A DNA stretch of 28,694 nucleotides from IMG/VR virus record IMGVR_UViG_3300022843_000050, positions 1 to 28,694 of that record; one strand, given 5' to 3'. The notes beneath the pieces were generated by a model. The model was given only the letters and a program-made list of their open reading frames with translations, had not been told where the DNA came from and did not search any database. The number at the start of each line of letters is the position of its first letter. Within the stretch, counting starts at the first letter, position 1. The stretch comes from a virus. The translations under genes were made by a program, and so were the position numbers. Shown piece after piece: positions 1,613 through 20,498 of the stretch.

Positions 1613-4600
1613 TTATTGATTTTCAAATATTTCCATAAATCTATTTGTTTCGTCTTGAGATCCTTGAGAAGCTCTAATTTTCTTTATTGCTAATTCTTGA
1701 GCTTTAATTTTTATTCTTTTAGCATATGAGCTATCTTTAAATTCTTCAGTTGCTTCTGTTCTTGCTTCGCTTTCTATTTCTTTTATTCGACCTCTTTGAT
1801 TTTCACGAATAGTCTCTTCTGTATAAGTTTTGTCTTTTAAAAGTTTTTCACCTTTTTGTTTTAATAATTTTCCAGCAAAAGTTTCAAGAACCGAATATTC
1901 TTCTGAATTTAAAACTACATTAATTTGTACGTCTTGATCCAATCCAAGATCTACAGCTATCATCATTTTCTTTTTGATCATGCCTGGAACTATCTCTAAC
2001 TTTTCATATTCTTTAATTAGTGGATGAACTTTAATACCAGACAGCATTCCTTGCTTCATTACTTCATCACCTAAAAAGTCTGTCTGAACTGGTAAATCAT
2101 TTTCTAAACCAGGAATTTTTTTCTTAATCATTTCAATGAAAGAAAGATTTAATTTATTAAAATCGTCTTTATTAACTAAACCCCACTTTTCACTATCAAC
2201 TTTTTCAGATCCTAAATCGTTAAATTGATTTAAGAATGTTGTATAAGGAACTTGACCAGCCATCATTTTTTTAAATTCTTTCATAACAATAGGACCGTCA
2301 TTATCTGACATCTTGATAGAGGTATAAACGTCAACCAATCTTGCTGTTCCTTGCATGAATGCGGAGTTACCAACGTTATCACCTATGGATAAAGCATAAC
2401 CTTGAAGAAAATCTTGTATGTCATCCCAGTCGTTATGATCTTCTTTTAGTTGACTTAACAAGGCACCAAGATCAGCAGCTACTGAAGCAATCAATACTGC
2501 TGGCTCAAATCCATTAAAACTTAATTGTAAATCTTCTGCTTCTTGAACGCCTAAATATTCTGCTAATTTATCTAATCCAACAACTTCACCCCACTCATCA
2601 TTTAAAAAATTATGAAATCTAAATGACTTAGGTTGTTTGTTAGAAGCTTCTCTTAATTGATAACCTTCAAAACCTCTTTTATCTGGATCAGATCCACTAA
2701 ATTTTCCAAAGTAACCTAACGGAACAAACGCTGCTAAAAAAGCCCAACCCATAGCATGTTTAGCTTTTGCTAATTGTTGTGTTGCTCCACCAGCTTTTAA
2801 ATCATCTCTATGTTTTTTAAGCAGTTTACTTAATATCGGATTTCTTTCAGTAGCAGTTCCAGCTATATTTGCTGGTGTTCTTAAAAAAGGAAAATACTGA
2901 CTAGATAGAATACTTACACCAGATAAGAACCTGGTATTTTTAAGTTCAGAAATAAAGTTAGCAGTATCACCAATAGCATCACCTCTTTTTTTTAAAGGTG
3001 TTTGAAAAGTTCTTTCTTGTGCAAGTTTAAAAGCTTGTTCTGTAAATTCTTTTGGTGGACTTACAACTAATGTTGCTAAAAATTCTGGAGCTTTTTCCAT
3101 TGTTAAAGTTCCAGCTTTAATTGCTGCTATAGTTTCTCTATAAGCTAATGCATAAATTTCACTTATATATGCACCATTTTTAAAATAATCATCACCATTT
3201 TGTAGCCATCGATAAGGCATTCTGTCTCCAGTAACTACTCTACCAACAACATCTACAAAAGTTTTTAATGGACCATCATCCATTCCAAAGGCTTCTCCAG
3301 AAAAAGCATTAATATCATGCTCTGCTTTAGTTCCAGCTATTTGACTTTTAAAACCAGGAAATTCTTTGTAAACTTTTTTAGCTTTTTTAAATGGACTTTT
3401 AAGTGTGTCTTTGCTTATTAAATTTAATTGTTTAAAATCATCTTTTAATGTTCTCCACATCGCAGTTGTTGCCATGTGTTCAGCAAATGCTACAACTTCA
3501 TTTTCAAATTCTGCAACACCGTCTGTAACTTTACCACCCCACCTTTTGACAGCATAACGTCTTTCTGAACGTTGCATTGTTTTAAATATCCAGCTACCTG
3601 CTATATTCTTAACATGTGTCATAGTACCAAATAAGATATTGTTTAAAAATATCTCAATCATCGCCTTATTACCTTTGACTAACCAACTCTTCTCTAAAAA
3701 TTTAACTTTGTTTTTTATGCCAGGTGTTCTTAAGTAAGCTTCAGCAATATTTAAAATTTGATCTTTACCACCAGCTTTTAATAAAATTGCTTCTCTATTT
3801 AATCGATCTAAATTTAGATTAGGAACAACTCCAGTATCATAAATTTGTCTATAACTTTGCAATGCTCTACCAGCTTCTGCTCTAGCACCAATAAACATTT
3901 TTTGTAATTCAGTAACTACAGCGTGTTCTTGCATAAAAGCTAAAGCATTTGCTGAAGTGTCTCCGTTTTCACTTCTTAATACTAAACCTAATTGTTCAAC
4001 TTTTTTATGTTTAGCAATTAATAACCTTGTAAGAGCTTCAATTTCATAATCAGCTAAAGCAGTACCTGGTTTCATCTTTAAGAAACCATTTGTTAATTTT
4101 GCTTCATCTACACCTAGTATTGCAGCTAATTTACCTTTGGCTGTCCAAGTCTGAACACCTCTTGTTTGTGTAACAACTTCTTTAGGATCTAATTGTTTGG
4201 CAATGATTTGAGCAGATCTAAAAACATCATCACTATTATTAAGTGTATTAATATTTAAACCATCTACAATCTTAGGATCAACATCTCTTGTTTGTCTTAA
4301 AATATCATCTTCTTCTAAATATTCTGTAGCATTAATTTTATTTAACTTTGTCTTTTGTGGAAATTTTTCATTAAAAGATTTAAGTAAATTAGTACCTTTT
4401 TGAATTATTGATGGAGCTAAAGGTTCTTCAATAGCAACTGGTGGTTCTACATAACCTACGTCAGTTGGACTTAAAGGTTTTCTATTACCAGCATTAATAT
4501 CATCAATAATACCTTGACTGTCTTTTATAAGATCAATTGCTTCATCAGCATTCTTTAAGATTGGCTTTATCGGTTTTGGTTTTATTTTCGATATAGCATT

Positions 4601-14272: not shown

Positions 14273-15145
14273 TTATTCGTTGCAAGGTATTTGAACTACA
14301 GCTTTTTCTTCCATTCTTACTGCGCCTAAAGACATAGCGTAATAAACTTGTGTACTGTAACTCTTATCTGCTCTTTCAGAAATTTGAGCTTTGATGTCAC
14401 TTCCGATAGCAAGTTTAATTGCATCTTCTGTGTAAGCAAAAATTAATCTGTCGTCAGTATTAGTTGCGTCGAACTTTAGTCTTGTTGACATTATGAACTC
14501 AAATCCTAAGAATGAGTTTATATCTCCTTGAGCCAACGCCTTAACGGTGTTGAAATCAGAAGATGTTACTTCCGTAACAGCTAACAGATCAGCAACTTGC
14601 TGTGGTCCACAACAAAGATAACGTTTTCTTGAACTGTCGATGTCATTGTTATCTAGGATCTTCTTCGCAGACAAAAGTTTAGCAATAGTCAAACCATCTG
14701 ATTGATTTGAAGTTGCTGTTTTTTGCGTTGAAGGTAAAGGCGTAGATGTACCACCAGCTACACCAGTTGAAGCAGAAGCATTAAATGCTGTAATAATTAC
14801 ATCATCCATTGCTCTATTCATTGCTGCTGCTGCATTTTTTGCATAAGCTGAAGTTGGATCAACTAATGCTCTGACCTTATCTTGATCGTCGATTAAGTCT
14901 GCCCATTCGTAGTCTGAAAGACTAACTCTTCTTCTGCTATGTGGAGTATCGATTTGAGGTGTATCGCCATGTCTTGACGTTCTCAATACCGCTGCTGTAG
15001 AACCAATTTGTTCAAAGAACGCATTTTTTCCTACAATAGATTCCTCATCCACAGAAGATCTTAGTTTGCTACCCATTTGTTGTGATAGCAAGTTTACATT
15101 CGAAGAATATTGTTCAACGAATGAAGTTGTTATGTTGATACTCAT
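14273..15145 (-). CDS. Major capsid protein, 290 residues
   Basis: The protein has the features of an HK97-fold podovirus capsid protein. These are an N-terminal arm (TTSFVEQYSSNVNLLSQQMGSKLRSSV), an FFEQIG segment, a conserved-looking RRVSLSDYEWADLIDDQDKVRALVDPTSAYAKNAAAAMNRAMDD stretch with the RALVDP motif, a central helix beginning SAKKILDNNDID, and FLGFEFIMSTRL followed by FAYTEDAIKLAIGSDIKAQI. This pattern occurs in the capsid proteins of many marine podoviruses. The gene follows the scaffold gene and has the strongest ribosome binding site in the window (GAGGAGG at spacing of about eight). A 168-base hairpin-rich leader separates it from the scaffold gene, as expected for the most heavily expressed product. 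Confidence 0.9.
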   Translation of the reverse strand: MSINITTSFVEQYSSNVNLLSQQMGSKLRSSVDEESIVGKNAFFEQIGSTAAVLRTSRHGDTPQIDTPHSRRRVSLSDYEWADLIDDQDKVRALVDPTSAYAKNAAAAMNRAMDDVIITAFNASASTGVAGGTSTPLPSTQKTATSNQSDGLTIAKLLSAKKILDNNDIDSSRKRYLCCGPQQVADLLAVTEVTSSDFNTVKALAQGDINSFLGFEFIMSTRLKFDATNTDDRLIFAYTEDAIKLAIGSDIKAQISERADKSYSTQVYYAMSLGAVRMEEKAVVQIPCNE

Positions 15146-15313
15146 AATAAGTACCTCCTCTATTTATGTTAGTTTAAGTTAAATTAAACGGTCGATTATC
15201 CTTGCGGATCTTCCTGAAATTTACATCATTCAGATGTTAGTCTTTCCTAACGTCAACAAAGGTCTTACGATTGTCTTTGATTTTATTCATCTAACTTTCG
15301 TTAGATAAAACTT
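15146..15313 (-). promoter_or_regulatory. Structured leader of the capsid gene with four candidate hairpins
   Basis: The gap between scaffold and capsid genes holds no ORF. Along the transcribed strand it can form: a 7-pair stem capped by a GAAA tetraloop (15289-15306); a GUUAG/CUAAC stem with a six-base loop (15236-15251); a four-pair stem capped by GCAA (15198-15209); and a GUUUAA/UUAAAC stem (15172-15189). The SD sequence AGGAGG at 15154-15159 follows. Two of the loops are GNRA tetraloops. No U-tract follows any stem. Likely roles are transcript processing, mRNA protection or control of capsid translation; a promoter inside it is possible but no clear -35/-10 pair was found. Confidence 0.55.
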
Positions 15314-16168
15314 TTAAGCATCTACTTCGTTATTTTTTTTACGAATTAATGCTTGAACTTCATCAACTGATACAGCGTGTCCTGGATGTTTCTTATCCCA
15401 ATATGCTGAACCTTGTTGTTGTAAAGCTGCAATTTGTTTTGTTATATCATTAGTCGTCATATAATCAGGAGTGTCTCCTTTAACTATATCATCTTCAGAT
15501 AATTTTTCAGATAGATTGGCAAAAGCTCTTACTATTTTTGGATTATCTCCAAGCTTACTACCATCGGCTAACATTGTTGTATTTAAAAAGTCAGCACCTA
15601 AAGTAGCTGTGGCTAAGTTCCTAGCACCAGTTATTTTATTATCAAAAGTAGATCCAAACTCTTTACGTAGTTCTTGTTCAGATACTTTTCTGGCTTCTTC
15701 AGATTTAATATTCTGTTCATTAATTCCGTTATTAATAACATCATTATAATATTTCATAATGCCATCAGCTTGATTAGGAAGTAGTCCTAACTTAACAGCT
15801 TGTTCAGAAAAACTTTTTAAAGTATCTTCTGGTACTGCATGATCTTCTGGTAAAGAATATTTATAAGCATCAGCAGTTTCTGGACTACCTAATCTTTTAT
15901 AAACTTCTTTCCAATCTTCATCAGTTGCGTGTTTATTCGGTACTGGAATTTTGTCTAAACCTACCATCTTCTGTGAATGGAGATATGATTTAACAAAGTC
16001 ATCCATCTTACTAAAGTTTTGTAATGACTTCTCTTCTCTATATTCTTCTGGAATAAGAGATTTAAAATCAACAGTTGGTGTTGCTGTTGTTTCTGCTGGT
16101 TGTTCTGCTGTAAGCGTAGTTGTCTGCGTTACATCAGGTTGAACTACTTGTTCAGTTGTCTGATCCAT
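15314..16168 (-). CDS. Capsid scaffolding protein, 284 residues
   Basis: An acidic protein with a Thr/Gln-rich disordered N-terminus (TTEQVVQPDVTQTTTLTAEQPAETTATP), then SLIPEEYREEKSLQNFSKMDDFVKSYLHSQKMVG, a segment with KRLGSPETADAYKYSLPED, and a long helical middle. This order is typical of podovirus scaffolding/assembly proteins, which sit between the portal and capsid genes as here. It chaperones the procapsid and leaves or is degraded during maturation. The start is three bases after the stop of the Bbp19-like gene, with AGGAG in good position. It has the charge and helix content of T7 gp9-type proteins, but confirmation needs a profile search. Confidence 0.85.
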   Translation of the reverse strand: MDQTTEQVVQPDVTQTTTLTAEQPAETTATPTVDFKSLIPEEYREEKSLQNFSKMDDFVKSYLHSQKMVGLDKIPVPNKHATDEDWKEVYKRLGSPETADAYKYSLPEDHAVPEDTLKSFSEQAVKLGLLPNQADGIMKYYNDVINNGINEQNIKSEEARKVSEQELRKEFGSTFDNKITGARNLATATLGADFLNTTMLADGSKLGDNPKIVRAFANLSEKLSEDDIVKGDTPDYMTTNDITKQIAALQQQGSAYWDKKHPGHAVSVDEVQALIRKKNNEVDA

Positions 16169-20251: not shown

Positions 20252-20498
20252 GTGTCTGTTTGTTTTAATTACCGATGATTAATGTAATAGTGTCGGCGGT
20301 CAAAATCTGGGGTATGGCTCTTTAATAAAAACGCTAAAAAGATAGTCCAGAAATAAATAGATTGTACGACAGGCAATCGCTCTACGGTAACTACCAATGC
20401 TTATTCAAACTTTGGTGCTGTAGTGGTGCTGATTATCCTATAACTCTATTAATACTGTAACTATCGAACCTCATGTCGTGTGTGAGAACTGTGTTTGT
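20252..20498. other. 247-base non-coding spacer between the terminase genes
   Basis: No credible ORF is present on either strand, which is notable in an otherwise packed operon. Structure seen: the 8-base direct repeat TGGTGCTG at 20413-20420 and 20424-20431, 11 bases apart; a short GATTG/CAATC stem at 20360-20378 whose minus-strand sequence resembles a tRNA anticodon arm; and an imperfect CCGAT/GTCGG inverted repeat near 20272-20296. Candidate roles are a packaging recognition (pac/cos) site, an attachment site or an internal promoter region. Confidence 0.5.

Follow-up and report, generated by a model that had tools for sequence, protein, structure and literature searches.

Why should a phage operon with otherwise tightly packed genes leave 168 nucleotides free in front of its major capsid gene? 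We examined this question in a 28,694-nt stretch of viral DNA (IMG/VR record IMGVR_UViG_3300022843_000050), referred to here as the window, which is judged from its DNA and protein matches to be an HTVC010P-type podovirus of Candidatus Pelagibacter (a pelagiphage). Its capsid protein is 58-62% identical to those of pelagiphage isolates, Hodr excepted. The late genes are encoded on the minus strand, where ORFs continue to about position 409, and the leader RNA therefore corresponds to the minus strand of 15146-15313. This gap separates the capsid ORF from an upstream ORF whose equivalents in the isolates carry the annotation 'capsid assembly protein' or 'protease'. A second non-coding gap, of 246 nt and without an ORF of at least 60 aa, lies at 20252-20498, upstream of the terminase end of the operon.

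Conserved pairing in the capsid leader

The minus strand of the gap folds at -36.6 kcal/mol, compared with -24.7 +/- 4.1 kcal/mol for shuffled sequences (z -2.9, 2/200), and the plus strand folds less well (z -2.0). Folding alone is misleading here, since the minimum-energy structure of the window lacks P1, a highly conserved helix. In the energy models for the window's lineage, P1 is displaced by pairing of the Shine-Dalgarno region, such that in the window and L001-L006 the P1 pair probability is near 0 and the Shine-Dalgarno sequence is partly paired. The computed fold also contains a hairpin, GUUUAA/UUAAAC, 3' of P4, which is not conserved.

We took 80 capsid loci from IMG/VR and cut out the gap upstream of the capsid gene in 77. 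An alignment of 36 cores (A1) has 98.0% of cells paired and 12 of 21 pairs changed on both sides, where slid controls pair in at most 48.5% of cells. The covariance model built from A1 (R1) matches leaders outside its build set, namely those of HTVC010P (E 1.8e-5), L086 (3e-8), L095 (9e-6) and L081 (2e-4). A larger alignment of 69 sequences (A2), which was fitted to the model and hence leans towards it, has 97.8% of cells paired (slid versions, at most 54%), with 19 of 21 pairs double-changed (0/500 shuffles) and 283 doubly changed cells against 61 in shuffles. The middle helix of the enterobacterial (YeP4) lineage covaries as well. The capsid leader is a conserved structured RNA in which pairing is kept through compensatory changes; a preliminary description of this DNA had proposed a structured 5' leader on the capsid mRNA and named such changes as the check, and on this point it was right.

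The conserved core (15189-15281, minus strand) comprises four helices, P1-P4, with an extra hairpin, HP0, standing 5' of it (Table 1). P1 is built from an outer stem of about 5 bp, a 4x1 internal loop, a 2-bp inner stem and a GNAA loop, and its outer pairs show double changes at four of five positions in A1 and at all five in A2. The P2 loop is conserved as GAAAGN, and in distant lineages other helices take the place of P2. HP0 is a real, conserved hairpin: its stem score reaches 8 or more in 65 of 86 upstream stretches and in 13 of 86 shuffled ones.

The four hairpins listed in the preliminary description correspond to HP0, P2, P3 and P4, each recovered on the minus strand; P1, among the most conserved helices, had been missed. 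Both GNRA-type loops to which it drew attention are present, GAAA in HP0 and GCAA in P4, but GNRA is not the conserved feature, the HP0 loop being GAAA or UUCG in the window's lineage, GCAA in L058 and larger and A-rich elsewhere. The CTAAC/GTTAG stem said to be common to two hairpins is a coincidence, as HP0 and P2 vary independently. Its dismissal of termination holds: no U-tract follows the hairpins and a terminator search gave no match, and we likewise rejected a terminator or attenuator.

Table 1. Features of the capsid leader and flanking genes in the window
Feature	Position	Strand	Basis or remarks
Capsid assembly/scaffold-type ORF, 5' of leader	15314-16168	-	phrog_3742; weaker match phrog_458 'protease'
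HP0, 10-bp hairpin UUUAUCUAAC-GAAA-GUUAGAUGAA	15286-15309	-	stem kept with altered sequence in relatives
P1, CAAAG[ACAA]UC-GUAA-GA[C]CUUUG	15257-15279	-	outer-stem cells paired 99.4% (A1), 98.5% (A2)
P1 module, 4-nt side ACAA opposite C15262	15271-15274	-	4x1 internal loop
P2, GUUAG-GAAAGA-CUAAC	15236-15251	-	97.9% of cells paired; 4/4 pairs double-changed
P3, 4-bp hairpin CAUC-UGAAU-GAUG	15224-15236	-	94-95% of cells paired; double changes in 3/4 pairs
P4, GG-AA-GA[U]CC-GCAA-GG[AUAA]UC-GA-CC	15190-15214	-	97-100% of cells paired; double changes in 5/6 pairs (A2)
P4 module, permuted, 4-nt side AUAA opposite U15208	15196-15199	-	P1 module with 4-nt side on the 3' strand
A/U-rich spacer, P4 to Shine-Dalgarno, little conserved structure	15161-15188	-	A+T about 71%, G 7% (unique leaders)
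Shine-Dalgarno AGGAGG of capsid gene	15154-15159	-	sequence
Major capsid protein gene	14273-15145	-	phrog_3437 major head protein, E 2e-91

The twin 4x1 module

One and the same 4x1 internal loop occurs twice per leader, in P1 and in P4. The module is typically AYAA opposite C, with the general form R-Y-A-N opposite a pyrimidine and the variants GUAGxU and AUACxC; the P4 loop is U x AUAA in the window and C x AYAA in most leaders. The first base of the P1 loop and the base opposite are A.C in 66 of 69 sequences and G.U in the remaining three, and never A-U or G-C. This exchange points to isosteric wobble pairing with a bulge of three bases after it, a three-dimensional arrangement that we infer from the sequences. 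The module duplexes can be capped at either end, in the arrangement A+B in pelagiphages, VP5, CKB-S2 and ctHz, A+A in ZP6 and L142, and B+B in YeP4 and Baldr, so that what is conserved is the duplex module and not the hairpin topology.

The two copies also change together. Among 78 leaders of the YeP4 lineage, from enterobacterial prophages and phages, loop position 4 is the same in both hairpins (C/C in 51, A/A in 27, mixed in none), and loop position 2 is uncoupled between them. Position 4 changes 11 times on the capsid tree and three times on the leader tree, each time in both hairpins jointly, which implies that most of the 11 changes are explained by exchange of leader blocks. Three independent concerted switches are too few for significance alone (sign test p 0.25); taken with the GUAG, AUAC, AUUA and ACUA pairs of other leaders, they point to a constraint probably common to both copies. 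Discordant phages are L057, L079 and ct3Et, the last with one A.C and one G.U loop. Pairing between the two loops was considered and rejected, since AUAA, ACAA and AUUA are not usefully self-complementary.

Distribution and transcript context

A core-pattern scan over IMG/VR that ignored context gave at least 94 matches just upstream of relatives of the window capsid, some of them only about 25-37% identical to it. There were 24 further matches among those listed, three with an outer stem of at least 5 bp, all of these being true copies cut by contig ends, and thus no convincing match outside the capsid context among the IMG/VR matches listed. Pairs of modules with the same loop were found in CKB-S2 (AUAA x C), VP5 and ZP6 (GUAG x U) and ctHz (AUAC x C), with 0/60 shuffles each, and in K292 (GUAG x U; 0.02); YeP4 carries AUAC x C, and Baldr, L142, L155 and L188 have module pairs as judged by eye. 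Two-module leaders stand before relatives of the window capsid in HTVC010P, the Vibrio phages VP5, K292 and CKB-S2, Alteromonas phage ZP6, Yersinia phage YeP4 and E. coli prophages. The module is absent before the capsid gene in the relatives Hodr, PG9A-1 and Piluca and in an Acinetobacter phage. Close relatives of the enterobacterial leader reside in E. coli chromosomes, and these prophage copies make a question that is hard to test in SAR11 accessible in laboratory strains.

Several loci have features of their own. In L188 an HNH endonuclease-like ORF (2823-3434) separates the leader RNA from the capsid gene; it opens with MGS, as the capsid does, which gives the impression of an insertion at the start codon, and the close relative L155 lacks the ORF. 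A small 'hypothetical protein' ORF overlaps P1 in HTVC010P (L199, 5622-5798), HTVC204P and Lederberg (L218, L221), part of which is probably RNA and not gene. The GenBank records of Hodr and Baldr (L201, L220; OQ414635, OQ414636) bear each other's locus tags, and one label looks swapped.

A sigma-70 promoter with 11-12 of 12 consensus bases is located 16-33 nt before the first module in VP5, L302 (phiVC8-like), K292, ZP6, L304 and L306, so in those lineages the element should form the very 5' end of the capsid transcript. Comparison with the sigma-70 consensus revealed no recognizable promoter before the element in the window or HTVC010P. HP0 itself was rejected as a pelagiphage promoter (CTTTAC-17-TATAGC): in most genomes the coding sequence of the upstream gene ends in this segment, whose bases also form the HP0 stem. 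In VP5 (L200, approximately 1300-1350) the strong promoter shares bases with a long inverted repeat, GTTCTCCCTATG..CATAGGGAGAAC, which may serve as an operator. Between the scaffold gene and the leader, the YeP4/enterobacterial lineage (L222-L301) has two hairpins: GCCAGC..GCTGGCTTTTTT, which resembles an intrinsic terminator, and another strong one, GGTCGG..CCGACC. The scaffold stop codon, UAA or UAG, falls inside the P1 internal loop in L052, L055, L057, L061, L063, L065, L079, L086 and L119, from which it follows that: (i) in several pelagiphages the element is also cotranscribed with the scaffold gene and (ii) ribosomes finishing that gene would open P1.

Possible roles and relation to known systems

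The alignments and scans establish a structure with covariation, present in two module copies that change in near concert and strictly associated with one capsid family. With slightly less than even confidence, we propose that the element is a cis-acting 5' leader of the capsid mRNA, in which two identical modules are read by one partner and set capsid expression with the ribosome-binding site left uncovered. A single specific partner is the best explanation for an RNA that is kept across wide capsid divergence and whose module is both duplicated and orientation-independent. The likeliest candidate for reading both modules is an RNA-binding protein, dimeric or bound in several copies, which the phage would make or recruit and whose binding would fix the folded 5' leader. 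The bound leader may then set the amount of capsid by protecting or loading the mRNA, a direction of effect and a step in expression that are proposed because about 43 nt separate the end of the modules from the downstream AUG and the A/U-rich ribosome-binding region stays free. The same spacer and distance argue against simple ribosome occlusion, and hence a positive or timing role is favored.

The main rival, which we consider unlikely, is a processive antitermination RNA of the put type, whereby the nascent leader would bind its host RNA polymerase and allow read-through of the capsid-tail operon. The start of the element a few tens of bases past a strong sigma-70 promoter in VP5, K292, ZP6, L304 and L306 is consistent with this, as are its place at the head of a long late operon and the two hairpins that HK022 put likewise has near its 5' end. 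The pelagiphage leaders, however, have no recognizable promoter, and concerted position-4 variation among phages of related hosts is unexpected if the target is a constant polymerase. A descriptor scan of the HK022 stretch at 25-40 kb found no comparable 4x1 module pair, and put sites were rejected as homologues, a result that lowers membership and not the analogy. Natural antitermination RNAs are rare, and the leader would join them if it modifies RNA polymerase. An autogenous operator, at which unassembled capsid or scaffold protein would bind both modules and match capsid synthesis to assembly, seems less probable still. Every real copy found precedes one capsid family, two copies would suit a dimeric or oligomeric protein, and the scaffold stop codon lies within the P1 loop in several phages. 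Position 4 can nevertheless switch beside a nearly unchanged capsid gene, so that the neighboring capsid protein probably does not read the loop in a sequence-specific way, and its candidacy as reader of this position is weakened; with the ribosome-binding site about 43 nt from P4, simple occlusion is again unlikely.

No specific reader is needed if the leader is a generic 5' mRNA stabilizer or an RNase processing site, which we rate as just as doubtful as the operator. Capsid should outnumber every other phage protein, and the arrangement of stacked 5' hairpins ahead of an A/U-rich ribosome-binding region is reminiscent of stable mRNA leaders such as that of ompA, yet a barrier requires no conserved internal loop, let alone the same loop twice, in either orientation and with A.C/G.U exchange. 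The twin internal-loop modules favor recognition by a specific partner over generic protection. Very improbable, in our view, is a translational switch confined to the window's lineage, in which the 3' strand of P1 would pair alternatively with the Shine-Dalgarno sequence and P1 formation would free the ribosome-binding site. The minimum-energy fold of the window and the P1 pair probabilities in its lineage agree with such a switch; against it, the P1 arm and Shine-Dalgarno sequence are near-constant in this lineage and so lend it no covariation support, and in other lineages the P1 arms differ and the site is more open. A wider generalization is rather unlikely as a whole: that the leaders form a widespread undescribed class of phage RNA, common to the abundant SAR11 phages, to Vibrio and Alteromonas phages and to enterobacterial prophages, whose duplicated 4x1 module would switch on capsid by modifying the host polymerase in the manner of put or by recruiting a dedicated protein.

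Rfam release 15 gave no match at the gathering threshold for the window and ten related loci, the best sub-threshold match scoring 24 bits against a cut-off of 112, and we therefore rejected a known Rfam RNA, riboswitch or leader family. The open-access full-text literature searched contained no description of such an RNA, and a pelagiphage transcriptome paper mentions neither leaders nor promoters. The element looks like a candidate for an RNA switch or signal, so far undescribed, that would act in the production of phage shells. Its two bulged hairpins resemble those of HK022 put, which also stand in a phage leader; a host-type promoter nearby, as in put, is clear in the VP5, K292 and ZP6 lineages and not in the window. 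Unlike the capsid leader, put acts on early transcripts. In the ompA stabilizing leader, too, the ribosome-binding region is unstructured and comes after 5' hairpins, and we know of no conserved recognition loop there. The leaders of T7 gene 10 and other RNase III-processed phage capsid leaders are likewise structured and stand directly before the capsid gene; here, by contrast, no phage RNA polymerase promoter was identified, and to our knowledge those leaders have no twin internal-loop module. Structured capsid leaders are thus already a known kind, and it is the RNA family and its twin module that appear to be new.
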